Virus record (IMG/VR): IMGVR_UViG_3300032304_000700
Location: 1-64,000 of that record
DNA length: 64,000 bases
Origin: a virus
Strand: one strand, 5' to 3'
Shown piece by piece: positions 13,068 to 61,965 of the stretch (position 1 is the first letter of the stretch; every line of letters starts with the position of its first letter). The notes under the pieces are model-generated. The model made no database searches and had not been told where the DNA came from. It saw only the letters and a list, made by a program, of their open reading frames with translations. A program made the translations under genes and the position numbers.

Positions 13068-13104
13068 ATTTTTTTGTTATTCTCTTAATTAAGGTTATTC
13101 CTCA

Positions 13105-13112
13105 ATAAATAT
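13105..13112 (-). promoter_or_regulatory. ATATTTAT motif upstream of the 1417-aa fibre
   Basis: Sense-strand ATATTTAT, 37 nt before the ATG at 13067, in a 118-bp intergenic gap (13068-13185) that otherwise holds only A/T-rich sequence and no gene. Confidence 0.4.
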
Positions 13113-13185
13113 CTATTTTAAGTTAAAACATATTTAATTAATAGATTTATTTCGGTTATTTTTATATATTTTATTTTACTATGTG

Positions 13186-15270: not shown

Positions 15271-15300
15271 CTATATTATTCTTAATTTACTTTATTATGT

Positions 15301-15308
15301 ATAAATAT
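15301..15308 (-). promoter_or_regulatory. ATATTTAT motif upstream of the 562-aa fibre
   Basis: Sense-strand ATATTTAT (within TTATATTTATAC), 30 nt before the ATG at 15270 and immediately after the stop of the preceding gene. Confidence 0.4.
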
Positions 15309-15317
15309 AACTTTTAA

Positions 15318-22801: not shown

Positions 22802-22819
22802 GGTGTATTAGTTTTAATA

Positions 22820-22827
22820 ATAAATAT
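22820..22827 (-). promoter_or_regulatory. ATATTTAT motif upstream of the 488-aa head-fibre gene
   Basis: Sense-strand ATATTTAT, 18 nt before the ATG at 22801, downstream of a terminator at 22845-22883. Confidence 0.45.
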
Positions 22828-22844
22828 GAATAATTTGTCATATA

Positions 22845-22883
22845 AATAAAAAAAGGGGAAAGTATTTCTACTCTCCCCTTTAA
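22845..22883 (-). terminator. Intrinsic terminator with GAAA tetraloop (copy 1)
   Basis: On the minus strand, AAAGGGGAGAGTA-GAAA-TACTTTCCCCTTT gives a 13-bp stem (one G.T pair) with a GAAA tetraloop, then TTTTATTTAT. It follows the stop at 22906 by ~25 nt. Its 32-nt core (22850-22881) is identical to that at 23482-23513. Confidence 0.9.
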
Positions 22884-22905
22884 TCAATTATTATCTTTAA
22901 TTATA

Positions 22906-23442
22906 TTATGCGTGAGCTATACATATATTATCACCATTTCTATAAATATCACCATATCCCAAACCACCACTCAATGCTGCTGCGTTTGATGCGTATGTTG
23001 GAATATTTGTAATATTTAATCTATTTGCACCACTACCACCAATTGTTGGCATCGATGAACCACTACCAAATTGAATGTATCCTGCTAATCTACTTTGTTG
23101 ACCGGATACAATCATAGTATTTACTAAGTTCATATCTCCAATATATGCATCATCACCAACTTTAAAGTTAGTACCCGTTCCATTGATGTTTGCTTGAACC
23201 GTATTAAATATACCATCACCGGTACCATTAAATGCGGTTGCAATGGATGCACTTAATGCTTGTACGTCAGCGTCTGTTGCTAAACCTGCACCATCTAAAG
23301 TTGTTTGTAAATTTGATGCGGAAATATATCCCCACATACCATCTTGATTTTTTGCTAATAAAGTTGTTCCTGTTACACTTTGGTATTCAGGAAAGTCCAT
23401 TGCTTTACCATACGTTGAATAAAGTTTTTCTGGATATGCCAT
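22906..23442 (-). CDS. Small head-associated fibre / decoration protein
   Basis: 178 aa. The N-terminus (YSTYGKAMDFPEYQSVTGTT, then KNQDGMWGYISASNLQTT) resembles that of the 488-aa fibre downstream. The middle has a helix (ADVQALSASIATAFNGTG) and beta repeats. The C-terminus AAALSGGLGYGDIYRNGDNI ends in CIAHA; an 'AL.GGL..GD.YR.GD....' ending is a common C-terminal motif of small phage structural proteins. It is the first gene after the major capsid gene, isolated by terminators on both sides and with its own ATATTTATA motif. That suits a highly expressed head decoration protein, but this is inferred. Confidence 0.6.
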   Translation of the reverse strand: MAYPEKLYSTYGKAMDFPEYQSVTGTTLLAKNQDGMWGYISASNLQTTLDGAGLATDADVQALSASIATAFNGTGDGIFNTVQANINGTGTNFKVGDDAYIGDMNLVNTMIVSGQQSRLAGYIQFGSGSSMPTIGGSGANRLNITNIPTYASNAAALSGGLGYGDIYRNGDNICIAHA

Positions 23443-23467
23443 TTTTAATTTGTTTTAATTGTTCTTA

Positions 23468-23476
23468 TATAAATAT
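23468..23476 (-). promoter_or_regulatory. ATATTTATA motif upstream of the 178-aa decoration gene
   Basis: Sense-strand ATATTTATA, 25 nt before the ATG at 23442, immediately after the capsid-gene terminator. Confidence 0.45.
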
Positions 23477-23481
23477 AAAAC

Positions 23482-23518
23482 AAAAAGGGGAAAGTATTTC
23501 TACTCTCCCCTTTTTTTA
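23482..23518 (-). terminator. Intrinsic terminator with GAAA tetraloop (copy 2), after the capsid gene
   Basis: Same 13-bp stem and GAAA loop as the copy at 22845-22883. It is followed on the minus strand by TTTTTGTTTTA and on the plus strand by TTTTTTTATTTTTTT, so it could act in both directions. It lies 37 nt after the capsid-gene stop (23555). Confidence 0.9.
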
Positions 23519-23554
23519 TTTTTTTAGTTTTAACTACTAAAATCTACTCAAAGA

Positions 23555-25162
23555 TTAAAGTTGGTCTAAACCATCAATGATAATCTTACCGTAGAACTCA
23601 GGTCTAACGATTTTCTTAGCGTAACGAGTCATAACACCTCTTCTTGGAGTGAAGTTAGTTGGGTCATAAACTAATGGAGTCATAATCAATGGTACATATG
23701 GTGCGTAAACTGCTCCTGTTTCGAAGAAGTTAGAACCTTTGAAGCCCATTAATAATACGTTCTCAGTCATGTATGGGTTTTTGTAAACGTCATATCTGTT
23801 AGAGATAGAACCGATGTTAGAAACACCTGCTGCGAAAGATAAAGCGTCTTTACCTGGGTTAGCAGAGAAACCATTCATTGATTCCAATATAGTTGCAACG
23901 TTTGGAGATACTACTACGAAGTTAGCACCACCTCTCATTGTTAACTGATGGATTTTGTTAGATACCTTTTGTAATTTGATACCTAAAGTTTGATACCAAG
24001 TGCTCTTAGTGTAAGCAGATGCTGCAGCAGCGTTAGAATCGATAGCGAATCCAGCACCATTCCAGTCATATCCTACTTTAGAAGACCAGTAGTCAGTTGT
24101 GAAAGCATTTTGTTGTAACATTTCTAAGATTTCTAAATCGATTTCTAAAGAGATGTACTCAGACAACATTTGAGTTAACTCAGCTTCAGCGTCTACACTA
24201 TGGTAAGCGTTTAAGTCTTGAGCTAATTCTGGAGTCCAAATAGCTTTTAATTTTCTTGTCTTAGCAACGATAGGCTCAGATTTCAATTCTAATTCGATTT
24301 CTGGGATAGCTAAATCATTACCTCTATCTTCGAAGTCACCTCTTAAAGCTGCAGTAGGTTGTACGTGGTATGCTAAAGATGTTCCAACAGATGGAGCTGT
24401 AGCTGTTCCACTTACTACGAACTCAACATTAGTACCATTCTTAGTAGTATATTGAGGGAAATAAGCTAAGTTTGAACCAGTCAACATAGTTAATTCGAAT
24501 GCTCTAATACCATTAAAATCAGCGTCTGCAGGCAATGCTACAGTTACTTTCTTCAAAGTGTTAGCTGCAAAAGATGCAGAAACAGCTGAAACTGATAAAT
24601 CGTAGTCGATATCTGCTAAAGATGCAGAAGCAACTGTTGCAGTGATTGCAGCAGTAGCGTTATTGATTGTATATCCGAATCTACCTGCACCATACAAACC
24701 ACCTTCAGCTACTTGAGTTGAACCTAATTTGTTACCTGATGGAGATAAAGAATCTTTACCAAAAGTTCCACCATTACCGAATAATGAAGAACCAGTAAAG
24801 TTTGGATTACCTGCTGGGTTAGTACCATATTTGAAGTCCATGTAGAAGATAAGACCTGAAGGCAAGTTCATTGGTTGTACAGAAACGAATTCTTTAGAAG
24901 CGATGCTTCCGAAAACTCTTCTTACCAATGGTAATGCCACACCAGCCCACTCTTCAGAACCTGCAGATGTACCTGTTCTTGTAGCTTCGTCTAATAATTG
25001 TTTTGCTTGGTTTTCTAACATTACTGCCATACCATGCTTAGTTGTTTCGGAACCTGCGTTCTCTAACAATCCTGTTTTTTCCCACTTAGCTTTCAAACCT
25101 CTTGTTTGCTCAAGCATTACTGATTGAGGGTTTGCGCCAGTCATAATTTGTTTTAAGTCCAT
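23555..25162 (-). CDS. gp23: Major capsid protein, gp23-like
   Basis: 535 aa, close to T4 gp23 (521 aa). Typical gp23 features are KAKWEKTGLLENAGSETTKH near the start, AVMLENQAKQLLDEATRTGT, the VALPLVRRVFGSIASKEFVS block, GLIFYMDFKYG, IPEIELELKSEPIVAKTRKL, AIWTPELAQDLNAYHSVDAE and the C-terminal TPLVYDPTNFTPRRGVMTRY followed by AKKIVRPEFYG. In T4-like phages the N-terminal ~65 residues are removed by the gp21 protease. Codon use is visibly less A/T-extreme than in neighbours, as expected of a very highly expressed gene. It follows the scaffold gene by 25 nt and ends at a strong terminator. No Shine-Dalgarno precedes it. Confidence 0.95.
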   Translation of the reverse strand: MDLKQIMTGANPQSVMLEQTRGLKAKWEKTGLLENAGSETTKHGMAVMLENQAKQLLDEATRTGTSAGSEEWAGVALPLVRRVFGSIASKEFVSVQPMNLPSGLIFYMDFKYGTNPAGNPNFTGSSLFGNGGTFGKDSLSPSGNKLGSTQVAEGGLYGAGRFGYTINNATAAITATVASASLADIDYDLSVSAVSASFAANTLKKVTVALPADADFNGIRAFELTMLTGSNLAYFPQYTTKNGTNVEFVVSGTATAPSVGTSLAYHVQPTAALRGDFEDRGNDLAIPEIELELKSEPIVAKTRKLKAIWTPELAQDLNAYHSVDAEAELTQMLSEYISLEIDLEILEMLQQNAFTTDYWSSKVGYDWNGAGFAIDSNAAAASAYTKSTWYQTLGIKLQKVSNKIHQLTMRGGANFVVVSPNVATILESMNGFSANPGKDALSFAAGVSNIGSISNRYDVYKNPYMTENVLLMGFKGSNFFETGAVYAPYVPLIMTPLVYDPTNFTPRRGVMTRYAKKIVRPEFYGKIIIDGLDQL

Positions 25163-25187: not shown

Positions 25188-26450
25188 TTATTTAATGATA
25201 CCTGCTAATTTCTTAAATCTATCAGAGAAGTTTGCATTTTCAGAAATTACTTCTTTTTGTTCTGCAACTGCTGGCTTAGTAGATTTTGTTACTTTACTAG
25301 CAATTCCTTCTTGAATTGATTTTTTAGCGATTTTGTTAGATGGTGTATATTTGAAATTCTCTGCTAATGTAGAGTATACCAATTTAACTTCTCTAACTGA
25401 GTTTGTTCTATCCAAAGTTTCAATCACTTTCACTTTTTGTTCGTTAGTCATGTTGTGAGCTCTGAATAATTTATTAGCGAATAATAACTTAGCGTTTAAT
25501 AAGTTTACTTCGTTAATAGTTTTTTGTAAAGATTTGATAGTAGAATATGCTTCTTCAAGTTCTTTCTCTTTTTCGTCATCTTTAGATTCTTCAGCTTCGT
25601 TTGTTAAGTCAGCTTCCATTTCTTTTAAGATTTCTTCTAAATCGATAACTTCATCCAAATCATCTTCTTTTTTATCATCTTCTTTAGCTTCTTCGTTAGT
25701 AGCTTCTTTTTCTTCGGTTTCGTCTTTAGCTTCTTCAACTTTTTCTTCTTTTTCAGTTTCTTCAGCTTCGTACATAGATTCTTCGTTTTCGTCAGAATCT
25801 TCACCTTCTAATTGTCTTTCTAACTCTTTTATGATAGAGTCTAAGTCCATATCATCTTCTGACATTTGGTCATCGGAATCCATATCCATAGAATCATCTT
25901 CCATGTCGTGGTCAGCCATATCATGGTCACCATCGTTATCCAAATCACCTTCTTCAGGTGTAATTGAATCCATAGAATCTTCTTCAGAATCATCACCACC
26001 TTCTAATTCTGCAATTCTAGCTTTCAATTCTGCAATTTCTGCATCTTTGTCATCACCAGCCATAGCATCATCAGCAAATGGGTTTTCTTCTTCAGAAATG
26101 TCTGCTACTTTCTTATAGTCAGTACCAGCTTGTTCAGGTTTACCAGCATCTTTCTTTACACCAACTGATAAATCAGTCATTGCATCTAAAATTGGGTTTG
26201 AACCTGGAGTCTCAGCGTATCCAGCGTCTACTTTAGACCCGATACCAGTTGAGCTTAATTCTTCGTTTGTTGTTTCTTGTTCATCATCCATATCCATTTC
26301 TTCAGCTTCTGCTCTCATCTTTTGAGATAAGATAGATTGAAGTCTTGGAGTAAATGCTTCTTCAAGAGCCAACTTAGCGTTAGCTAATGCAGTTTCTTTA
26401 ACGGCTTTAGCGTCAGCGATTGCTTCTTTCAATAATTTTGAATTTGCCAT
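25188..26450 (-). CDS. gp22: Prohead core scaffold protein, gp22-like
   Basis: 420 aa, longer than T4 gp22 (269 aa as I recall). The N-terminus NSKLLKEAIADAKAVKETAL, then ANAKLALEEAFTPRLQSILS, is typical of scaffold proteins of aquatic T4-like phages. Residues ~50-270 are extremely acidic, with Asp/Glu runs and an EEGDLDNDGDHDMADHD stretch that could bind calcium. The C-terminal third has the coil TIKSLQKTINEVNLLNAKLL followed by FANKLFRAHNMTNEQKVKVI and TLAENF, and ends RFKKLAGIIK. The scaffold fills the prohead and is degraded by gp21. Unusually for this window, the start has a perfect SD (AAGGAG, 8-nt spacer) and a 188-nt structured leader downstream of bS21. Confidence 0.8.
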   Translation of the reverse strand: MANSKLLKEAIADAKAVKETALANAKLALEEAFTPRLQSILSQKMRAEAEEMDMDDEQETTNEELSSTGIGSKVDAGYAETPGSNPILDAMTDLSVGVKKDAGKPEQAGTDYKKVADISEEENPFADDAMAGDDKDAEIAELKARIAELEGGDDSEEDSMDSITPEEGDLDNDGDHDMADHDMEDDSMDMDSDDQMSEDDMDLDSIIKELERQLEGEDSDENEESMYEAEETEKEEKVEEAKDETEEKEATNEEAKEDDKKEDDLDEVIDLEEILKEMEADLTNEAEESKDDEKEKELEEAYSTIKSLQKTINEVNLLNAKLLFANKLFRAHNMTNEQKVKVIETLDRTNSVREVKLVYSTLAENFKYTPSNKIAKKSIQEGIASKVTKSTKPAVAEQKEVISENANFSDRFKKLAGIIK

Positions 26451-26638
26451 CTTGTTTTCTCCTTAAATTTTGTTGTGAAGTTATTCTTGTAGGGAACTCC
26501 AATGTAATTATGTTGATTGTTCGGTCACACCTTATAGAGAAGGGTATTCATTAATCAACTATGTCTTGTAATCTCATAATAAAAAATGAGATATTTAGTA
26601 ATATATATGTAAATTTTTTAGAAAACTAAAGAAAACTA
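26451..26638 (-). promoter_or_regulatory. Structured leader with strong Shine-Dalgarno before the scaffold gene
   Basis: 188-nt gap with no gene. On the minus strand it holds a hairpin ATCTCAT/ATGAGAT (26571-26592), then a longer stem GTTGATT/AATCAAC (26512-26559) enclosing a second small stem (ACCCTT against AAGGTGT), and finally AAGGAG eight bases before the ATG at 26450. Nearly all other genes here lack an SD. The only other clear one is GGAG before the 194-aa gene at 29084. The leader could be a translational control site. Pairings were found by eye and not computed. Confidence 0.5.
26622..26638. repeat. 17-nt repeat AAAACTAAAGAAAACTA, copy 1
   Basis: On the plus strand, AAAACTAAAGAAAACTA, abutting the 3' end of the bS21 gene. 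It is identical to 61941-61957 in the leader of the lone plus-strand gene. It contains a direct half-repeat AAAACTA. Confidence 0.6.
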
Positions 26639-26650
26639 TTAAAATAGTTT
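26633..26650 (-). promoter_or_regulatory. 18-bp inverted repeat over the bS21 stop codon
   Basis: AAACTATT-AA-AATAGTTT spans the bS21 stop codon. On the sense strand it can form a 7-bp hairpin followed by TCTTTAGTTTTC, so it may be a weak terminator or attenuator between bS21 and the scaffold gene. Confidence 0.35.
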
Positions 26651-26815
26651 GTTTTTTCTTATAGTTTCTTGCCTTTCTATCCTTTTTCTTTTGGAAGGTT
26701 TAATAAAATTCTTCCTTTCTCTAAGTTCTTCTATTTGTTTTATGGACTGAACTCTCTTTTTGTAATCTTTTATTGCCCACTCTATGTTTCCACCTTTAAC
26801 ACTAACTATTAACAT
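26639..26815 (-). CDS. rpsU: Phage-encoded ribosomal protein bS21
   Basis: 58 aa, ATG at 26815, 2 nt after the stop of the previous gene. The protein starts MLIVSVKGGNIEWAIKDYKK and continues with RVQSIKQIEELRERKNFIKP, then SKRKR and a basic tail ending KNKLF. The bS21 family signature is visible: an N-terminal strand, 'IE.A...YK...', then 'ELR.R..F.KPS..KR'. E. coli bS21 has ~70 residues; Bacteroidota forms are nearer 60 and begin MLII/MLIV, as recalled. bS21 binds the 30S platform beside the 3' end of 16S rRNA and the anti-Shine-Dalgarno. Phage bS21 genes are known from aquatic phages. Here the gene sits in the head operon, immediately upstream of an SD-led scaffold gene. Confidence 0.88.
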   Translation of the reverse strand: MLIVSVKGGNIEWAIKDYKKRVQSIKQIEELRERKNFIKPSKRKRIERQETIRKNKLF

Positions 26816-26817
26816 CC

Positions 26818-27189
26818 TTATTGTAAATTAACCAATTTGTATTTTGTTGAGTATAATAAAGTTACAACTGTATCTATGTCGTTTTGTAACCAACTCATTT
26901 GTAATTTTTCGTCTTGTCTTAACTTTGCAACTGCTGCAATCAATTTATCAAAATATGCAACTACATTTTTAATGTCATTGTTTGTATCTAATCCACTTAC
27001 TGCTTGTAATTTGATTAAACCATATTGTCCTTGATATGCTTCAACTAATCCGTCTACTATTCCACCAATTGAGTCGTAATAATTTCCCAATGCTAAATGT
27101 GCAGATAATGAACCAACACCTCTCTGTCCTAAATGAAATGAATGTGCCTGCGTTCTACTATGTAATAATAATGATGCTAGTTGTTCCAA
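26818..27189 (-). CDS. Small helical protein, DUF5856-like
   Basis: 123 aa. No ATG is available at the N-terminus; the best start is TTG at 27189, 10 nt after the upstream stop. The sequence LLLHSRTQAHSFHLGQRGVG, then SLSAHLALGNYYDSIGGIVD and LVEAYQGQYGLI, recalls a family of phage proteins I remember as DUF5856. The 'H..HL..RG..SL.AH.AL..YYD.I....D.L.E' spacing resembles one half of a Dps/ferritin-type helical bundle. Metal binding is possible through the three His and the Asp/Glu but unproven. It is the gene directly before bS21, separated by 2 nt, so the two are probably translationally coupled. Confidence 0.6.
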   Translation of the reverse strand: MEQLASLLLHSRTQAHSFHLGQRGVGSLSAHLALGNYYDSIGGIVDGLVEAYQGQYGLIKLQAVSGLDTNNDIKNVVAYFDKLIAAVAKLRQDEKLQMSWLQNDIDTVVTLLYSTKYKLVNLQ

Positions 27190-27199
27190 TTTATTTCTT

Positions 27200-27610
27200 T
27201 TATTTTATTCCCAATCTTTCTTTCATAACATCTTCAGAAATGTCTGCAATTTCAAAATATCTACCCAATACATTTCCCATATCTTCATAAAGTGCTTCCA
27301 ATCTTTGTTGTTGTTGAGATGCTTCTTTAGCTTCTTTTTCAAATGCACCTTGTAGTTTTTTCAATTCACCCATATTTCTTTTAATAGTGACTCTATCAAA
27401 CCAATCATCACCTTCTCTCAAAGTGTATTCTTGTGCAGCATCTGCAATTGCTCCCAATGTTTCTGCAACCTGTCTAATGTCAGATTTTCTACTTATTCCT
27501 TCTCTATGTTGACCATATGTTGAAATGATTTCCAAAAAATGCTTCTTTAAGTTTGAAGGCAATTTTTGAAATTCTTCATTTTCTTTCATTAAATCTTTTA
27601 ACTTTATCAT
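27200..27610 (-). CDS. Coiled-coil protein beside the prohead protease
   Basis: 136 aa, entirely helical in appearance: KLKDLMKENEEFQKLPSNLK, GISRKSDIRQVAETLGAIAD, VTIKRNMGELKKLQGAFEKE and a Gln-rich coil ending in DISEDVMKERLGIK. No catalytic motif. It lies 4 nt downstream of the gp21-like protease and 10 nt before the DUF5856-like gene. In T4 the same region encodes small prohead core proteins (gp67, gp68), so a minor core or assembly protein is plausible. Similar genes occur near protease genes in aquatic T4-like phages, from memory. Function is not proven. Confidence 0.5.
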   Translation of the reverse strand: MIKLKDLMKENEEFQKLPSNLKKHFLEIISTYGQHREGISRKSDIRQVAETLGAIADAAQEYTLREGDDWFDRVTIKRNMGELKKLQGAFEKEAKEASQQQQRLEALYEDMGNVLGRYFEIADISEDVMKERLGIK

Positions 27611-27614
27611 CTTA

Positions 27615-28205
27615 TTAGTTTAATTCTATTATAATTTCTCTCATTAAATCTTGTGACTTACACCACTTACCACATTCCTCTGCTACTTTTGCCCATTGTT
27701 TACTTTCGTTCATAGGAGCCATAAATGCACCATGTGTTGATGGGTTTGATACAAAGTCCCATCCAACTAATTCAAAGTCTTCCTGAACCATTACAGTACC
27801 ATCTCTAAGTTCTTTTACCGAACCCAATCCTCTACTACTAATACCTAGACGGATATTATTTTTCAATAATTCTTTTAAGATATTACCAGATGGAGTTGAT
27901 AGTATTTCTACTACACCACACACATCATCACCTTCCCAAAAAATTTCTCTAATATTATGAGAAACATTTTTTAAGTTAATAACAGGAGAATCTGGATGGT
28001 CTAATTCACCCAATGCTCTTCTTTCTTTGATAAGTTGTTCGTATTTCTTACATTCTCTTTCTAAGATTTCTTTAGGATATCTTCTATGATTTTGATTTGG
28101 TGCACCTGCTCTTTGTAGGATTCCCTTAACCAAATAAGTTCCATTGTCTTCTTGTTGAAGTTTTGCTTCAAACAAATGGGTTTCTATCAATAATCCTTTA
28201 TTCAT
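27615..28205 (-). CDS. gp21: Prohead core protease, gp21-like
   Basis: 196 aa, near T4 gp21 (212 aa). Landmarks of the T4 prohead protease family (MEROPS U9, herpesvirus-assemblin-like fold) are QRAGAPNQNHRRYPKEILER early, ALGELDHPDSP with His70, VSHNIREIFWEGDDVCGVVE with His83, ILSTPSGNILKELL, IRLGISSRGLGSV with Ser123/Ser124, and ELVGWDFVSNPSTHGAF. His70 and one of Ser123/Ser124 are the likely catalytic pair. The protease sits in the prohead core, then cuts the scaffold and the N-terminus of the capsid protein. Its ATG overlaps the stop of the next upstream gene by 1 nt. Confidence 0.9.
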   Translation of the reverse strand: MNKGLLIETHLFEAKLQQEDNGTYLVKGILQRAGAPNQNHRRYPKEILERECKKYEQLIKERRALGELDHPDSPVINLKNVSHNIREIFWEGDDVCGVVEILSTPSGNILKELLKNNIRLGISSRGLGSVKELRDGTVMVQEDFELVGWDFVSNPSTHGAFMAPMNESKQWAKVAEECGKWCKSQDLMREIIIELN

Positions 28206-29379: not shown

Positions 29380-30255
29380 TTATTTTTTTATTGATTCTTT
29401 TAATTCACTTAATAATTCATAAGTCATCATCATTGCGGAAAGGTGTTGTTCTTTAATCTTTTTTACAGACTTAATCTTTTTAACATTTGCAATTGTTTCT
29501 GTTAGTTTGATTTTAGTTACTTTATCATTAATCTTAGAACCAACTTCTTTCAATGAATCTACTAATTTAGAAACTTCATTATTAACATATTCACTTAATT
29601 TACCAGTATTGTTGATGTTATTTATATATTCTCTCAATAATGATTTTTGTTCAGATGTAAGACTTTTGTATTTGTTATTAAAAGATTCTACTAATAATTT
29701 GTATGATACTGCTCTTAAATCTTCGTCTTGTTTTCTATATTCTTCTAAAACTGCATCTTTTACCTTTACATCTTTATTTTGAATAGATGAATTGATAATG
29801 TTTTCTGCAATAGTAAATCTAGATGAAACTATATCCGTTGGGTCAAATGATTCTTCAGATGTAACGGTTTCAAATATCTTATAAATAGATGCAAGAGTTT
29901 TGTAGTTTGATATTGGAGATTTAATAAACTCATCTAAATTATAAGTTTCCTTAATTTCTTTAATAAGGTTATACTTTTCTTTTGTAAGTTTTTTCTCGTC
30001 AATCTTTTTACGAGCTTCCAATATCGTATTGATAAATTGTTCAGCCTTTGATTCCGAATTATATTTTTCGTTAATCAAATATTGATATAACTTTAGTTCT
30101 TTAGATAATTCTTTTTTAGAATTAAAATGTTCTTTTAAAATTTTTTCTGCTACTGATTTATTTGCAGACATGATTTCAGACGTAATTTGTCTTACTAACA
30201 ATTCAAATATGAATCCAGTATTTTTAAATTTAGAATGCTTTATTTTTTTCATCAA
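29380..30255 (-). CDS. Conserved-looking helical protein next to the portal gene
   Basis: 291 aa, Lys-rich and almost all helical. The N-terminus KKIKHSKFKNTGFIFELLVR, then QITSEIMSANKSVAEKILKE, looks like a family I associate with the head cluster of aquatic T4-like phages, where it has no assigned role. The central part has NLDEFIKSPISNYKTLASIY, and the C-terminus a long coil with INDKVTKIKLTETIANVKKI. Starts at the first of two Met codons; ATATTTATA lies 18 nt upstream. It may be a prohead core or internal head protein. That is inference from its position just downstream of the portal gene. Confidence 0.5.
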   Translation of the reverse strand: MMKKIKHSKFKNTGFIFELLVRQITSEIMSANKSVAEKILKEHFNSKKELSKELKLYQYLINEKYNSESKAEQFINTILEARKKIDEKKLTKEKYNLIKEIKETYNLDEFIKSPISNYKTLASIYKIFETVTSEESFDPTDIVSSRFTIAENIINSSIQNKDVKVKDAVLEEYRKQDEDLRAVSYKLLVESFNNKYKSLTSEQKSLLREYINNINNTGKLSEYVNNEVSKLVDSLKEVGSKINDKVTKIKLTETIANVKKIKSVKKIKEQHLSAMMMTYELLSELKESIKK

Positions 30256-30273
30256 TTGATATTATTTATCAGA

Positions 30274-30282
30274 TATAAATAT
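30274..30282 (-). promoter_or_regulatory. ATATTTATA motif upstream of the 291-aa head-cluster gene
   Basis: Sense-strand ATATTTATA, 18 nt before the ATG at 30255, in the 47-bp gap after the portal gene. Confidence 0.45.
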
Positions 30283-30302
30283 GTTTTTATATTAGTTTAT
30301 TA

Positions 30303-32045
30303 CTATTTATCCAAATTCTCTGTTAGAATTGTTTTTTTATTACCATTCATATCTTTAAAAACTTCTAAATATGATATTTTTCTTGGTTTGTATGGTATTG
30401 AGCCTTCTTTTGATTTAAGTGTTTTAATACCTAATGGGTCTCTACCAGCAATGTGGTCATCTTTACCATATCTAACTGTGTCTTTTGGTCTACCGATTTT
30501 ACTTTCACTTTCTAATTCGGAATTTATAGAATTAATCTCTTCCTCTACATCGGTAGGGCCTTCTGTACCTGTTGGTTTTGCCGGGTCCATTCCCTGAGTT
30601 TCAATTGAGTTTAATCTAAATGATTGTTTAGTATCCTCTAATACTTGCATTGCCATTTTCTCTTGTTCGTCTTTGGCCATATTTAAAATAGTCTCATACA
30701 TCCATTCTTTTGAAACCATCTTAGTTTGTTGCATTTGTTGAATCAATGCAACTTTGGAAGTATATAACTCAACTTTTTCTTGTTCATATATTTTAGATGG
30801 GATTGTCAATTCTAATGTAAAGTTTGTCAATCTATCATCATCAATTCCTTGTGCATATAAGTGAACAATTGCAATCTTTGTTAATTCCGAAACTATTACT
30901 CTTTGTATTCTTTCAATAGTTTTTGCAAATCTAACATCCATTGCGGCAAGTGTTGCCTTACCATTTGTGTCCTCTTCATATCCTAAATATGCTTTTGGAA
31001 TTTGTAATGCTGCCATAAACTTATTTTTCAAATAGTTAATGTCATCAATCATATTATATTCCAATCCTTTCAAAGTATCAATTGAAGTTCCATTATCACT
31101 ACCACGAACTGGCATGTAATAATCTTCAATTAAGTTTTGCATATTATATTTTAAGTTATACTCACCAGTTCTTTCATCGACAAATGGAACTTTTTTAGAT
31201 GAGTTAATAATTTTCTGCATGTAGTTATCCACTTCATTTGGTGGAATATTACCAACATCTACTTTAAAGATTCTCTTTTCAGGGGCTCTCATTACTCTGT
31301 GGATTAACATAGCGTCTTCCATCAATTGCAATTGTTTCCAAACTCTTCTACCACCTTCAATCATAGATTTTCCGTAAGGTAAGAAATTTGAGTCACCATT
31401 TAATCTAAAATGAGCTATTTCATAATTCTCATATTCTTTCTTAGGTGTAGATGATGGTCCTGAATATGGGTTTTGGTATGGTGCGTATACAAATTTAACT
31501 CTTTGTGGGTTGTTTGGGTCAAATCCTTCAACTCTACTCATTTCGTATGTTGATAGTGGCAATACATTAACAATTCCTAAGTTTTCTGCCATTTCTAATT
31601 GTAAATAAAAATCACCATACTTAACCAAATTTCTTGCCCATGGCCATAAATTAAATTCTATATTAAGAATATCGTAAAATAGATTTTCTAATATTTGTTT
31701 AATTTCTGCATCTTCGTGATGTATTTTTAAAACATTTCCAAATTCATTTCTAGCAGTACATTCATCTGCATATACATTCAATGCAGCAGATAAAATTGGG
31801 TCACTATCCATTGAATCGTAATCTCTAAACAAATCAATTCTAACTTGTTGATATGCTAATGATGATTCTACGGTACCGGATGCGTAGTTACTAACCTTCA
31901 ACTTCATAAATCTGTCTACTAGATTCGTAGTCATGTTTTGATACTCATCGGTATCAATAACTTTAATACCTCTCTCCGTTTTACGGACAATAGTATTTGT
32001 TGAAAATAATTTTTGTAACCTACTAAATATTGTTTTTTCTGCCAT
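30303..32045 (-). CDS. gp20: Portal vertex protein, gp20-like
   Basis: 580 aa (T4 gp20: 524). Typical gp20 text runs through the protein: RDYDSMDSDPILSAALNVYA then DECTARNEFGNVL, NIEFNLWPWARNLVKYGDFY, PLSTYEMSRVEGFDPNNPQR, NYEIAHFRLNGDSNFLPYGK, LIHRVMRAPEKRIFKVDVGN, KKVPFVDERTGEYNLKYN, YYMPVRGSDNGTSIDTLKG and KNKFMAALQIPKAYLGYEED. The dodecameric portal seeds head assembly and is the DNA channel that the terminase docks on. No SD; the leader is A/T-rich with a near-match ATATTTAA ~23 nt upstream. The C-terminal ~80 residues (GPTDVEEEINSINSELESES onward) are a polar extension. Confidence 0.93.
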   Translation of the reverse strand: MAEKTIFSRLQKLFSTNTIVRKTERGIKVIDTDEYQNMTTNLVDRFMKLKVSNYASGTVESSLAYQQVRIDLFRDYDSMDSDPILSAALNVYADECTARNEFGNVLKIHHEDAEIKQILENLFYDILNIEFNLWPWARNLVKYGDFYLQLEMAENLGIVNVLPLSTYEMSRVEGFDPNNPQRVKFVYAPYQNPYSGPSSTPKKEYENYEIAHFRLNGDSNFLPYGKSMIEGGRRVWKQLQLMEDAMLIHRVMRAPEKRIFKVDVGNIPPNEVDNYMQKIINSSKKVPFVDERTGEYNLKYNMQNLIEDYYMPVRGSDNGTSIDTLKGLEYNMIDDINYLKNKFMAALQIPKAYLGYEEDTNGKATLAAMDVRFAKTIERIQRVIVSELTKIAIVHLYAQGIDDDRLTNFTLELTIPSKIYEQEKVELYTSKVALIQQMQQTKMVSKEWMYETILNMAKDEQEKMAMQVLEDTKQSFRLNSIETQGMDPAKPTGTEGPTDVEEEINSINSELESESKIGRPKDTVRYGKDDHIAGRDPLGIKTLKSKEGSIPYKPRKISYLEVFKDMNGNKKTILTENLDK

Positions 32046-33162: not shown

Positions 33163-34773
33163 TTACTTTAGCAACCAAGTTAGGTTTTCTTTCTCACCTT
33201 TGCCTAAATCCATTTCATATGGATTTCCTTGTTGTTGCCAATTAGATGTATAAACTCCTGAATTAGTGTTTATAGTTGTAGCGTTTAACATATTCTTTGT
33301 CAAATCAATTCCCTCTTGTTTTAATCTCAATGCAGTATTACGAACCCAAAGTCCAATACCTAAGGCCATAATAAGGTCATCATTATATCCTTTCATTGCT
33401 TCCGCTCTACCACTATGCCAAATGAATGTAAACATCTCATCTATCAATCTACTTGAACGAATTAAAATATCTTTATCATTCATATATGTGTCTAATGCCG
33501 ATATGATAAGTGGACGAGTTTTACTGGTTGTCGAAAATCCTGCAACCATTTGTCTTTCGTCTCTATAATATTTGTTTGACATTTGTCTTTCGGTATCAAT
33601 ATATTGTAAATCATTACTCATATAGAATAAATTTGGATACCCTCTATTGATAATTTGTTGAATACATGCCCATCCTACATTTGAGTTCTCCACTACTAAG
33701 AGTGCATTATTATATTCAGTTGCAAGTGATGTTAGAAAGTTACCAAAATCTTTTGTGTCAATTTTACCTCTATATTCTGCAACTTGTGAGCTATCTTCAA
33801 TGTCTATAACCTGTGCAGTAGAATAGTCAGCTCCGTCACCACGTGCAACGTCCGCACACACCATATATGCTCTATTGTAGTTTGGATGCTCCCACACCCA
33901 TAGATTACTATCAAATCCTCTTTTTTCAACCGGGTCCATAACATATGTATCTTTATACCATGTCAATAATGCGGGTTCAAATACTGTATCACCCGAACCT
34001 ACGAAGTCACAATCACATTCTTGTGCTGCACCTTTAACTCCTAAGATACGAGTTTGTTCATCTCTCCATGCCTGATTTCTTTCTGGATGAACTGTCCAAT
34101 GTAGATTGATATTATTAAATCCATTTTGGCCACTTTCACCATCTACCCACATTTTATGGAACCAGTTACCGATACCATTTGGAGTAGATAATACGATTGC
34201 GGAACCACCTGTTGATAAGGTTGATTGTGCTGATAACCAAATTTCATCGATATCTCTAATGAATGCTGCCTCATCCACAACTAATAGGGATAGGGCTTCA
34301 GAACGACCTGCGTCCGGAGAACTTGCGATTGCTTTTACTTGTGAACCATTTTTTAATTTAAGGGAAAGTTTGTTATCTTCTACCGAACTACTGCCACCAT
34401 CTCTTAACCAAATAGGAAGTAAGTCGTGCATAACTCTTACCTTCTCTACCAGATTCTTTGCCACAGTCACTTTCGTTGCAATTACCAATGCATTAAAGTC
34501 TTGGTTGAATAACATCTTCCATAAAATAAATCCTGCAGATAAGGTTGATAGACCCAACTGACGAGATTTAAGAATAATGTTAAAACGATTGTCTTTGAAG
34601 TCCGTTAAACAATCTTCCTGGAATGGATAAAGGTGAAAGGGTATTTTTCCTCTCACCGGATGCTGAATGACACAATACTTCTTCATAAAGTAAATTGGGT
34701 CTAACGCACACTTGCGATATTCTTCAGCAATTATCTCTTTTAAGGTTTTCTTAGGTTGCCCCTGAACTCCCAT
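33163..34773 (-). CDS. gp17: Terminase large subunit, gp17-like
   Basis: 536 aa (T4 gp17: 610). ATPase domain: Walker A region LKSRQLGLST (Lys69, Gly74, Ser76, Thr77), where the usual GK lysine is Leu75 and a lysine instead begins the loop, as in lambda gpA; Walker B LLVVDEAAF (Asp167, Glu168); coupling motif STP at 196-198. Nuclease domain: CADVARGDGADYS (Asp308), LVVENSNVG (Glu362) and KGYNDDLIMALGIGLW (Asp465/466), giving the RNase H-like acidic triad. The enzyme pumps DNA through the portal and cuts concatemers. The ATG overlaps the preceding stop by 1 nt. No separate gp16 small terminase is obvious next to it. Confidence 0.95.
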   Translation of the reverse strand: MGVQGQPKKTLKEIIAEEYRKCALDPIYFMKKYCVIQHPVRGKIPFHLYPFQEDCLTDFKDNRFNIILKSRQLGLSTLSAGFILWKMLFNQDFNALVIATKVTVAKNLVEKVRVMHDLLPIWLRDGGSSSVEDNKLSLKLKNGSQVKAIASSPDAGRSEALSLLVVDEAAFIRDIDEIWLSAQSTLSTGGSAIVLSTPNGIGNWFHKMWVDGESGQNGFNNINLHWTVHPERNQAWRDEQTRILGVKGAAQECDCDFVGSGDTVFEPALLTWYKDTYVMDPVEKRGFDSNLWVWEHPNYNRAYMVCADVARGDGADYSTAQVIDIEDSSQVAEYRGKIDTKDFGNFLTSLATEYNNALLVVENSNVGWACIQQIINRGYPNLFYMSNDLQYIDTERQMSNKYYRDERQMVAGFSTTSKTRPLIISALDTYMNDKDILIRSSRLIDEMFTFIWHSGRAEAMKGYNDDLIMALGIGLWVRNTALRLKQEGIDLTKNMLNATTINTNSGVYTSNWQQQGNPYEMDLGKGEKENLTWLLK

Positions 34774-38566: not shown

Positions 38567-39127
38567 TTAATTTTTATAATATAATTCTGGATATTCTACT
38601 AATATATATACTCCTTTGTTTTGTGTAGCATATTTGTATGATAATTCTATATCGGTTGGTGTTTTTAAATCCAATAATTCTATATTTTTACACATAGATT
38701 TAAATTCTTCAAAATAATTACCTTTATGTTGATGTCCTGGGTCTAATGGTTTATCAGAACCCTTTCCCAATCTAATTATAATATGTGGTTTAAATCCTGT
38801 CATGGATTCGTATTTATCAATATGGTTTATTAATTGGTTTGTTGCACATATTATAAAATCCCAACGAGGATAAAATGTTACTACCAATTTATTAGTCATT
38901 GATAGTCCCAAACTCATTCCCATTTGAGTTTCTTCCATAACAGGCAATTCAATCATTTTTTCTTTTGATACTTCTCCCAATGTTGTACTCATTGGATTTC
39001 CTGCATAAACTATTTGTTGGCCAATGAATATTGAATTATCCAAATTGGATATGTTTTTCATTGCGATAGTTAATGCATCTTTATATGGTGTATATTCTGG
39101 TTTATTCATAATTAAAAGGCTATCCAT
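38567..39127 (-). CDS. Thiamine-diphosphate enzyme, pyrimidine-domain subunit (E1-beta-like)
   Basis: 186 aa from ATG 39127. An ATG at 39109 (MNKPEYTPYKDALTIAMKNI), 2 nt after the upstream stop, is equally good. The text follows the E1-beta/transketolase pyrimidine domain: NSIFIGQQIVYAGNPMSTTL, IELPVMEETQMGMSLGLSMT with the conserved Glu of 'P(I/V).E', VVTFYPRWDFIICATNQLIN and HIDKY. The usual C-terminal domain of E1-beta (about 140 residues) is absent. Paired with the next gene upstream it would form a minimal two-domain enzyme like sulfopyruvate decarboxylase ComDE in layout. It likely transfers a two-carbon or acyl unit, perhaps to a nucleotide sugar, given the neighbours. Confidence 0.75.
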   Translation of the reverse strand: MDSLLIMNKPEYTPYKDALTIAMKNISNLDNSIFIGQQIVYAGNPMSTTLGEVSKEKMIELPVMEETQMGMSLGLSMTNKLVVTFYPRWDFIICATNQLINHIDKYESMTGFKPHIIIRLGKGSDKPLDPGHQHKGNYFEEFKSMCKNIELLDLKTPTDIELSYKYATQNKGVYILVEYPELYYKN

Positions 39128-39741
39128 TTCCCACTTCCGTAGTGTGGATATTTTGATTTGTAAGTATAATGAATAACATCCGATGGGATGTCTCTTTTTT
39201 TATTCCAAGTTGATTCGGTTGGAGTATATGTTGATACCCCATTATCTTCTACAACAAATATAATTGGTAAGTCAAAGTTTCTTGCATATTTGTGCACCTC
39301 ATAGAATATACCACTTTCAAATGACATATCACCAATAAATACAAATACTTTCTCATCACTACCTTTTGATTTAATTCCCATTGCAACTCCTAAAGCAATT
39401 GATAGAGTACCGCCTACGATTGCAGAAGCGTAGAATTTTTCGTTATGTTCACACATAGTGATTGATTTACCCTCTTTGATTAATTCGGTTGCATAGTCTG
39501 CAGATAATCCTTTTAAAACCCAATGGTAATGAGAACGCCATGTACTGAATACCCAATCGGTTTCTTTAATTCTTTTAAATATTTCTATCAATTGTTCTTC
39601 GTTTCCATTTGATAAATGTACTGGTCCTCTGATTTTACCACTTTCCCATATATCAACAATTTCTTGTTCAAACCTAATAAGTTTTTCTACTGTCCAATCG
39701 ATATCTCTTACTATTGGATATTGTTCTAAATTTTTTAGCAT
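39112..39741 (-). CDS. Thiamine-diphosphate enzyme, diphosphate-binding subunit (E1-alpha-like)
   Basis: 209 aa. The PP-domain motif is clear: FIGDMSFESGIFYEVHKYAR...VEDNG, i.e. Gly137-Asp138 followed 29 residues later by Asn167, matching GD(x)25-30N for Mg/ThDP binding. Before it are VFSTWRSHYHWVLKGLS and ASAIVGGTLSIALGVAMGIK, typical of E1-alpha. The protein is ~60% of normal E1-alpha length, lacking flanking elements. Its end overlaps the pyrimidine-domain gene by 16 nt, so the two are surely co-translated. It lies directly downstream of the RmlC-like gene (7-nt overlap), which points to sugar modification rather than central metabolism. Confidence 0.8.
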   Translation of the reverse strand: MLKNLEQYPIVRDIDWTVEKLIRFEQEIVDIWESGKIRGPVHLSNGNEEQLIEIFKRIKETDWVFSTWRSHYHWVLKGLSADYATELIKEGKSITMCEHNEKFYASAIVGGTLSIALGVAMGIKSKGSDEKVFVFIGDMSFESGIFYEVHKYARNFDLPIIFVVEDNGVSTYTPTESTWNKKRDIPSDVIHYTYKSKYPHYGSGKWIAF

Positions 39742-56843: not shown

Positions 56844-57242
56844 TTACAATCCACAATCACCTAAATATCTAAAATCTCCAGAATTACTTATTCTACCATA
56901 TGAAGTAGCATCTGAGTAAATTCTTCCACCACCAGCAAATTCGGTACCATCTGAATTATAATATGTTGTTCCATCATTTAAACCACCATACTCATTACTA
57001 TAAAGTACATTAGTATAATTTCCATTTCCGGCATTTAAACAAGCTGTTCCAGTTGGTCCAGTTGTTCCAGTTGCAACAAAAAATGCATAAGTATATCCAC
57101 CACCCCCTCCTCCTGGATTTAGCCAACTATCAAATTCCGACATACTATCTGGTGCAGTAAGTCCTCTAGCAGCGGCATAACTTCTAAGATTTAAATCCGA
57201 GCTTCCTAATTTATTTTTTATAGCTAACATTGATTGACTCAT
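56844..57242 (-). CDS. Small glycine-rich structural protein downstream of the S74 fibre
   Basis: 132 aa. N-terminus SMLAIKNKLGSSDLNLRSYA, then AARGLTAPDSMSEFDSWLNP, followed by GGGGGGYTYAFFVATGTTGP and a C-terminal Gly/Tyr/Asn beta part ending RISNSGDFRYLGDCGL with two Cys. 'LRSYAAARGLTAPDSMSEFD'-type text recurs in virion proteins of Bacteroidota phages, in my recollection, before a poly-Gly linker. Its stop-start overlap with the 1540-aa fibre (1 nt) indicates a fibre partner, perhaps a tip or chaperone. Confidence 0.55.
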   Translation of the reverse strand: MSQSMLAIKNKLGSSDLNLRSYAAARGLTAPDSMSEFDSWLNPGGGGGGYTYAFFVATGTTGPTGTACLNAGNGNYTNVLYSNEYGGLNDGTTYYNSDGTEFAGGGRIYSDATSYGRISNSGDFRYLGDCGL

Positions 57243-60200
57243 TATCTATTCCTTTTTAATTCTTCAATTTCTGATTTTAATTCTTTAATACACTCAACCA
57301 ATAATGGAACGATTCTTTCATAATTTAAAGTCATATAATTTTCACCAGATTTACTTTGATTAGTTTGACCAAGAGAATCAAAAGGTGCCAAATCAATCAC
57401 TTCAGGTAAAACTTCGTTAACTTCTTGTGCAATTAATCCAATTTGTCTTTTTTTATTTTTAAATCCAAAATCTTCCGCTAATTTATTTTGTGTATAATAT
57501 ACCCCGTTTAACTTTTCAATTTTATCTAACGGATTTTCAATTTTGCCTTCAATATTTTTTAATCTACCATCAGAATAGTTTGCCACTACATCACCCCAAA
57601 CCTGTAATTTTGTACCATTTAAAGTTGCCCATGGCCCCCCTGCATATTGACCAAAAGTAAATGAAGTCAGAGCACTCAATACCGTATTTCTTTCAATAGA
57701 TTCTAATCCTGGTATCCCCTCATTATATATAGTTTTATATCCTCTAAGAAATCCCATTATAGTTGCCGGTGTGTCCGGGTCCCTAAATTCAAAATTACCC
57801 CCAGGTGTAATCGTTTGCGGGTTCATACCTGATGCTAGAACATCTTTCCACCCTCTTATTATGACATTTGAATTTACAGTCATATTACCAGATAATGTTG
57901 CATTTCCACTACTATCTACTGAAAATTTATCCGGCCCGATATTAATAGTACCACCGGTTATGGTTGTACCACTTAAGGTTCCACCGGTTATGGTTGTACC
58001 ACTTATTGTTGTACCACTTATTGTTGTACCACTTAATGTTCCACCGGTTATAGTAGAACCACTTACTGCTCCTTTAAAGAATGCATTCCCCGATGTATCA
58101 ATATAAAATTGTTGTGCATGTATAGAACCACCACTATTTAAAGTTATACCAGATGTTGAAAAACCATCTGTATCTTTTGTTCCACTAAATATTGAATTAC
58201 TATCTATTGTCCAACCACCAACAGTACCTGCCGTTTTAGCAGAACCATTTTGTTGAGCAGTTGCACCACTAGCCGCACCATCTTTAACGGTTGTTGCATC
58301 TGTTCCACCAATTGTTGCCGTACCTGAAATTGAAACACTACCTGCTATTACAACTCCTTCACTTTCAGTGAATTTTATGTGTGCACCAGACGGGTCTCCA
58401 AATCTCATACTACCTGTTGTATCTAAGTAATATCCTTTTCCGGTCATTAATGCCGATGCATTTGCACTTCTAATAAATCCTTTATCACTTGTACCATATG
58501 TTCCCATTACTAAACCTCGTGTAATAGTTGCATCTTGTGCCAAAAGAATATCAGTTGCAACCGAACTAAACGTTGCACCAAATGAACTCCATTGATTTAA
58601 ATATGATGTACCAGTTATTGGTTTATCCACTGCACCATCTGCAGTAGATGTGTGTCCTACTTTTGTTAAATAGTATTGTGAATTACTACCTCTTACAACA
58701 TCTATTCTAACGGATGATGAAAAATATGCTGTATTAGGTGCCCAATCTCCTCTATAAACTACACCTGGTCCTGCACCACCATCTGCACCATTTAAACCGT
58801 TACTTCCTGCAGTTCCCGTATTCACTTTTGTAAATCTTGCAACAATAGTTTGTGTTTGACCAGTAGTACCTTCACTATCAGTATGTGTTACAACAATTGT
58901 AGCAGATGCTTCAGCTGCATTCATTACTGCAGATGTCATTGTTAATATTGCACTACTAATTGTTGGATTTGTTGAAAACCCTGAATATGTTGCAGTCATA
59001 GATGTAAATCTACTCGTAGTTCCTTCCAATGCAGTTACTGTCACATTTGATAAAATTCCAGTTTGAACACCAGCAGCATTGGCCAATACCGATTGTGCTT
59101 GTGGAGTTGCAGATATAACTACATTTGGAACTGCTTTTTTAGTTTTTGATAATGCCAATGTATCTGTTATAGTTCTACTTACACCTTCCGAATCTGTAAC
59201 TACTGCACTAATATCTACAGTTGTTGAATTTACTCCGTTTGCTAAAGTTTTTCCATTTAAAGTAATCAATCCTGTTGATGGTGTTGTTGATATAGTTGCA
59301 ATATTTGCAGATGTTGCAGTTAAAGATGTTATCGTTAAATTTGTAGTAACACCATTATAAGTTTCTTTTACCGATATGGTTACATTTGAAAATGCATCTA
59401 TTTGTTCACCTGTTGATTTTGCAGTTACTGTTTGGTCTTTTGGTGTTGATGTAATTTGCAAAACGGGTGCAGCTTTTTTGTTTTTAGTATATGTTACTAA
59501 TTTTGTTGTATCAGATGTATCACCCGCACCATCTTTATATCTTATAGTCAAATTCAAAGAACCACTATCAGCATCTAATCTTGTTATGAAATAGTCGGTT
59601 GTTGAATAATTCAATGAACCAGTTTGAACATTTGTTGCAACTGCCGATACAACATCAAATCTATTATTTGCAGATAATCCATTATTATGTGTTATAGTTT
59701 CATTACCAACTTTAACACTAACCGAACCACTACTCAATACAAAAGAACCACTTTCTACAAATCCAGTAGAACGTGCCGGTAGTGATGCATTATCGTTTGT
59801 CAAAGATACAGATAATCCATCTAATATTTTTACAGGACTTATTTTAATTGCATCTGAAAATACATTCCCAAATTGGTCAGAACCAGAAATAGAATAAATC
59901 GTTTCACCCGTTCCATATGGATAAGATGTTCCTGATAATGTATAAGTATCTACACCATTTGTTGTATTTGTGGAAACATATGTTAGAGCGGGTTTTCCAC
60001 TTCCAGAATTTACAGTTAAAGGAGTGTCTGCAGATGCTAAGTTTTTTCTTTTAGCTTCAAGTGTTATAACTTGACCTGTTGGGTTTAATGATAAATCGGT
60101 TGCTTTGTAAATAAATTGATTTGTATTTGCAGTTACAAAAACACCAGGTGCATTATCACCATCTTCAAATCTATAAATTGTTTCATGTTGATGTAATTCT

Positions 60201-61915: not shown

Positions 61916-61940
61916 TAAAGAAAACTAATAAAGTCTTTAA

Positions 61941-61957
61941 AAAACTAAAGAAAACTA
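61941..61957. repeat. 17-nt repeat AAAACTAAAGAAAACTA, copy 2
   Basis: Exact match to 26622-26638. It ends 8 nt before the ATG of the RHH-like gene. A related half-copy AAAGAAAACTAA begins at 61918. The position suits an operator for autoregulation. Confidence 0.6.
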
Positions 61958-61965
61958 AATAAGTT

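Follow-up and report, generated by a model that had tools for sequence, protein, structure and literature searches.

A same-strand phage bS21 without Tyr54 among T4-like head genes, beside a candidate leader RNA

Among ribosomal proteins encoded by viruses, bS21 is the commonest, and its role there is unproven. Its presence next to head genes in myoviruses that infect Bacteroidota was published by Chen et al. 2022 (PMC9723584), together with its late expression and the idea of a ribosome takeover. A pelagiphage bS21 was found to be incorporated into E. coli ribosomes, which were then about 5% active (PMC6375957). On the host side, Tyr54 of Flavobacterium bS21 stacks on A1534 of the 16S 3' tail, helps to divert this tail, and is required for full sequestration of the anti-Shine-Dalgarno (anti-SD) sequence (PMC9976891). 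F. johnsoniae ribosomes in which the C-terminus of bS21 is missing form poor initiation complexes on SD-less mRNA (Fmax 0.34 compared to 0.98), while Y54A ribosomes are near normal on such mRNA (0.95); the Y54A change raises translation from strong SDs and leaves SD-less initiation nearly intact (PMC9976891).

The gene described here is a known kind of phage bS21, in a distinct lineage where it shares the strand of the head genes but lacks Tyr54, and it stands beside a new candidate RNA element. The window, that is, the whole stretch of DNA analyzed, comprises 64,000 nt (positions 1 to 64,000 of IMG/VR record IMGVR_UViG_3300032304_000700).

The bS21 gene and its place in the head module

The open reading frame at 26639-26815, on the minus strand, encodes 58 amino acids (MLIVSVKGGNIEWAIKDYKKRVQSIKQIEELRERKNFIKPSKRKRIERQETIRKNKLF) and is a genuine bS21, as a preliminary description of this DNA had claimed. 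Its Pfam PF01165 match scores 41.5 bits (E = 1.1e-10, model positions 2 to 54 of 55), for a curated cut-off of 27 bits, and it also matches PHROG 21469, 'ribosomal protein S21' (E = 2e-4). It was the sole bS21 found in a scan of the whole 89.4-kb virus record (89,399 bp; E = 2.7e-11). In a PDB sequence search, the nearest solved chains were Bacteroidota bS21: the top match was the F. johnsoniae protein (7jil_z, E = 3e-6), and a second close chain was another bS21 (9i5v; aligned tail ending in 'KAIY'). The AlphaFold model (pLDDT 84) contains helices at residues 11-35 and 40-57. A Foldseek search with this model gave nine matches, all of them ribosome chains, including L. lactis S21 (5myj_AU), and none significant (best E 0.67). 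No SD precedes the bS21 start.

The gene belongs to a T4-like head module on the minus strand, whose members are, in the order of transcription:

33163..34773, minus strand: terminase large subunit TerL (PF03237)
30303..32045, minus strand: portal gp20 (PF07230)
27615..28205, minus strand: prohead protease gp21 (PF03420)
27200..27610, minus strand: helical gene, without family match
26818..27189, minus strand: DUF5856 gene (PF19174; PHROG 858 'starvation-inducible'), TTG start, ending 2 nt before bS21
26639..26815, minus strand: bS21 gene (58 aa), Arg53 aligned with Tyr54 of F. johnsoniae bS21
26459..26464, minus strand: AAGGAG, SD-like, ahead of the scaffold start
25188..26450, minus strand: putative scaffold (gp22 position), without family match, assigned from its place between gp21 and gp23
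23555..25162, minus strand: major capsid protein (MCP) gp23 (PF07068), without SD

This arrangement bears out the earlier statements that bS21 sits inside the capsid assembly operon and begins 2 nt after the preceding gene, which is the DUF5856 gene and is found in bS21-less sister phages as well. It had also been placed directly before an SD-led scaffold gene; the gene order holds, but 188 nt lie between the two, with a box, a promoter-like site, a hairpin and a structured RNA. No tRNAs or Rfam matches were found in the window. Just past the MCP gene, two near-identical terminators (GGGGAGAGTAGAAATACTTTCCCC followed by a T tract; 22802-22905 and 23443-23554) flank a gene at 22906-23442. Elsewhere, at 38567-39741, two adjoining genes each resemble one half of a thiamine-dependent E1 dehydrogenase/transketolase (PF00676 scores above its cut-off, PF02779 below), surrounded by sugar epimerase, glycosyltransferase, methyltransferase and radical-SAM genes.

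Ninety relatives were found in IMG/VR, of which 80 were kept, and bS21 was recovered in all 80, at the same place and on the same strand. Where the contig was long enough, it nearly always lay a few nucleotides after a DUF5856-type ORF and 182 to 190 nt before the scaffold ORF; an exception is L026, in which, owing to a deletion, bS21 runs on into the gap and leader region. This constancy of place, together with a pooled pN/pS of 0.15 (60 distinct DNA sequences), argues that the ORF is not a chance one. The FxKPS motif and the basic C-terminal half are kept in 43 of 43 distinct variants of the near set. The gene is nevertheless missing from scattered sister phages of the same lineage, and is therefore not essential: on the gp21 tree, at least four gains or losses are forced by well-supported branches, and seven are needed on the best tree. 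The bS21 slot is taken by a terminator hairpin in many of these sisters and by a different short ORF in others. In L234, L250, L264, L290 and L296, the slot holds a short helical ORF other than bS21. The scattered absence, combined with a median dN/dS of approximately 0.11, indicates that bS21 is an accessory gene under purifying selection.

By MCP, the nearest phages are Microcystis phage Mel-JY01 (53.8%) and Flavobacterium phage immuto (53.5%); by TerL, immuto is the closest cultured relative (52.6%), followed by Mel-JY01 (51.5%), and Rhodothermus phage RM378 is more distant by both. This kinship, the A-rich, SD-poor, Bacteroidota-like translation starts of the phage, and the grouping of its bS21 with those of Bacteroidota phages (see below) point to a host that is probably a member of the Bacteroidota, probably of the Flavobacteriia, in agreement with the preliminary description. 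Mel-JY01 (L154, PP395634), named a 'Microcystis phage', groups with Flavobacterium phages by MCP and TerL despite an SD-rich head region (47% compared to 9% expected); its bS21 is likewise devoid of Tyr54, with Lys in its place.

Replacement of Tyr54

Arg53 of the phage protein falls on host Tyr54, in an alignment without gap between FxKPS and this site. It is present in 43 of 43 distinct bS21 variants of the near set, and among the classified leader-bearing loci with bS21 the residue is Arg in about 175 of 178, His in two and Tyr in one. By comparison, Tyr54 is found in 31 of 31 Flavobacteriaceae host bS21, and in the fetched Chen-type phage loci, where bS21 is on the opposite strand, position 54 is also Tyr. 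Stacking of Tyr54 on A1534 defines the anti-SD-sequestering bS21 of Bacteroidia, and the phage protein lacks this Tyr. The rpsU gene of nearly all 31 Flavobacteriaceae has an AGGAGG-type SD. Many of the Flavobacteriaceae genomes considered carry two or three bS21 genes, so that hosts, too, may often have paralogues of this protein.

A tree of phage and host bS21, weak with its 64 columns, placed the proteins of this lineage in one clade (91/94), beside those of the Chen-type phages and apart from the 31 Flavobacteriaceae sequences. The Tyr, His and some of the Arg forms are basal within the lineage, and the remaining 33 rows, all Arg, constitute a 100/99 clade, which suggests that Tyr54 was probably lost within this phage lineage. 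As the residue needed for full anti-SD sequestration is Arg here, the phage protein may alter the 16S 3' tail, and would probably grip it less firmly than host bS21 does.

The gap between bS21 and the scaffold gene

The following elements are found in the 188-nt gap, in order after bS21:

26619..26634, minus strand: box TTTCTTTAGTTTTCTA, unchanged across all 49 distinct gaps in the close set; putative DNA-level regulatory site
26599..26607, minus strand: putative late-promoter-like site TATATATTA (TATTTATTA in relatives), matching the ATATTTATA motif present before many other phage genes
26571..26592, minus strand: hairpin ATCTCAT-8 nt-ATGAGAT, close to where the gp22 transcript is expected to start
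26475..26561, minus strand: 87-nt conserved structured leader RNA (model R1), with three helices
26553-26559/26512-26518: leader helix P1
26540-26546/26526-26533: leader helix P2
26495-26501/26476-26482: leader helix P3

The only near-copies of the TTTCTTTAGTTTTCTA box, at 61938-61963 on the minus strand, lie upstream of a 1540-aa gene (57242-61864, Peptidase_S74 tail protein) and perhaps mark a site for a phage regulator. Long-range pairing between the box and the SD region was considered but abandoned, since the box is constant and its would-be partner is not. The ATATTTATA motif, which reads as the T4 late promoter TATAAATA on the complementary strand, recurs some 20 to 40 nt before starts (for instance at 13068-13185, 15271-15317, 23443-23554 and 30253-30302), and is probably the late promoter of this phage. 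As for the hairpin, about nine different stems, all perfectly complementary, are encountered among relatives.

The structure of the leader is supported by covariation. With RNAalifold on 38 distinct sequences, the three helices comprise 21 pairs, seven of them with compensatory changes; 99.4% of cells pair, compared to 36 to 50% when the partners are slid, and the number of both-side changes was reached by none of 500 shuffles. The folding energy of the single sequence is not significant (z 0.13). With the corresponding covariance model, each related genome gives a single strong match, located before gp22, whether bS21 is present or not, and the motif occurs in at least 120 IMG/VR stretches. 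A weaker full-length copy lies directly before the Mel-JY01 scaffold gene (39.3 bits, E = 7e-5), and no copy was found in immuto, LR756508 or RM378; second matches in four genomes are at chance level (E 0.1 to 0.3).

A known riboswitch or ribosomal protein leader was rejected as an identity for this RNA, as none of 4227 Rfam families matched at the gathering threshold, and those appearing at E up to 10 were at chance level. An origin from the host was likewise discarded after a search of 198 genomes of the host class gave no match, in a set for which there was no genome to serve as positive control. BLASTN of the gap against INPHARED returned nothing. We conclude that the 87-nt RNA is a new, undescribed candidate regulator of capsid gene expression: the hairpin may protect the mRNA, and the structured domain may control or enhance translation. 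The leader being independent of bS21, the two are neighbors and not a single device.

Possible roles of the phage bS21 and comparison with known systems

We lean slightly towards a role as a replacement part: a phage-adapted bS21 would, late in infection, exchange into the 30S subunits of the host and keep them competent for SD-less initiation when the supply of host bS21 fails. The paralogue would be made from the transcript of the head genes, its translation coupled to that of DUF5856; both its incorporation and the timing are conjectural here. Subunits containing it would remain competent for the almost entirely SD-less phage messages as host bS21 runs short, which is the presumed benefit, and a weaker hold on the 16S 3' tail would be a side feature rather than a means of choosing phage messages. 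The sequences themselves establish the identity of the protein, purifying selection, its conserved place, the change of Tyr54 to Arg and the SD-poor genome. In favor of this reading are the bS21 family match, the FxKPS motif and basic C-terminal half kept in all variants of the near set, the low dN/dS, the separate phage clade and the SD-poor phage genes, together with the published poor SD-less initiation of F. johnsoniae ribosomes with truncated bS21 and near-normal initiation with Y54A (PMC9976891), the entry of pelagiphage bS21 into ribosomes (PMC6375957) and the late expression of Chen-type bS21 (PMC9723584). Against it stand the bS21-less sisters, the activity of about 5% of pelagiphage-bS21 ribosomes in E. 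coli, and the indirect assignment of the host.

The preliminary description had suggested a selection of messages through the anti-SD. In such a switch, Arg53 of the phage protein would release the 16S 3' tail, and ribosomes would come to prefer SD-led messages, such as that of the scaffold with its AAGGAG. The nearly uniform Arg in these phages, compared to Tyr in hosts and Chen-type phages, fits this proposal, as does the boost that Y54A or a C-terminal truncation gives to translation of a strong-SD reporter (PMC9976891); however, Arg is itself able to stack on adenine, so that release of the tail is uncertain, and the strongest SD of the hosts, the AGGAGG on rpsU itself, would also be favored by such a switch. 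A freed anti-SD would moreover predict an enrichment of SDs in phages with bS21, and none was seen: AGGAG or GGAGG precedes 0 to 2.6% of genes in five genomes with bS21 and 1.5 to 2.3% in three sisters without it, near background in both. The MCP start has no SD, and the scaffold AAGGA(G) is found also in bS21-less sisters and is missing in several phages with bS21 (Fisher P = 0.08 when any SD is counted; with the full AAGGAG the trend runs the other way, P = 0.06; L026 counted among the phages with bS21 by manual adjustment). A link between SDs and bS21 was therefore rejected; the SD distribution leaves the switch unsupported, and we hold it to be unlikely.

The low activity of pelagiphage-bS21 ribosomes in E. 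coli (PMC6375957) might instead indicate a poison or decoy, joining host 30S subunits to depress host translation. That activity was measured in a foreign host, however, late capsid synthesis requires active ribosomes, and the gene is placed with the head genes and not with early genes, all of which makes this reading decidedly improbable. An action outside the ribosome, with bS21 binding the structured leader just downstream and regulating scaffold and MCP synthesis, might be imagined for a member of an RNA-binding family whose gene adjoins the leader in all near relatives, the distant Mel-JY01 having both bS21 and a leader match. Yet the leader is kept in bS21-less sisters, LR756508 has bS21 before the scaffold without any leader, and the Rfam search related the leader to no known ribosomal protein leader family; we consider this explanation very improbable.

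A broader picture would be that, in phages of Flavobacteria, bS21 has lost the anti-SD-clamping Tyr by way of His or Arg, so that infected cells would contain an additional kind of 30S subunit whose 16S 3' tail is less restrained, together with a new class of structured leader RNA governing translation of the scaffold and capsid genes in an SD-less host; taken as a whole, it is quite unlikely. Whatever the role, this lineage includes pairs of related phages that differ naturally in having or lacking bS21, as well as a natural Tyr, His and Arg series at position 54 in a host group where bS21 governs access to the anti-SD, which makes the 'specialized ribosome' idea directly testable.

Among described systems, the bS21 of Chen clades a to e are likewise located among TerL, portal, protease and MCP genes in phages of Bacteroidota hosts, share the phage-type N-terminal helix (KQIE..LR), and occupy neighboring tree branches. 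They differ in being on the opposite strand, whereas here the gene is on the strand of the head genes, 2 nt after DUF5856, and in having, every one of them, an aromatic residue at position 54 where Arg is found here. RpsU of Mel-JY01 (PP395634) shares the strand and the position between gp21 and the scaffold, in a phage with a weak full-length leader match; it is a divergent protein of 75 aa (21% identity), two ORFs separate it from the leader, and the head genes are SD-rich. Pelagibacter phage HTVC008M (Mizuno 2019, PMC6375957) is also a myovirus with a bS21, of alphaproteobacterial origin, whose protein was shown to enter ribosomes. Finally, the host rpsU of Flavobacteriaceae belongs to the same family and has the same FxKPS core, with Tyr54 and an AGGAGG SD, in contrast to the phage gene, which has Arg53 and is SD-less.
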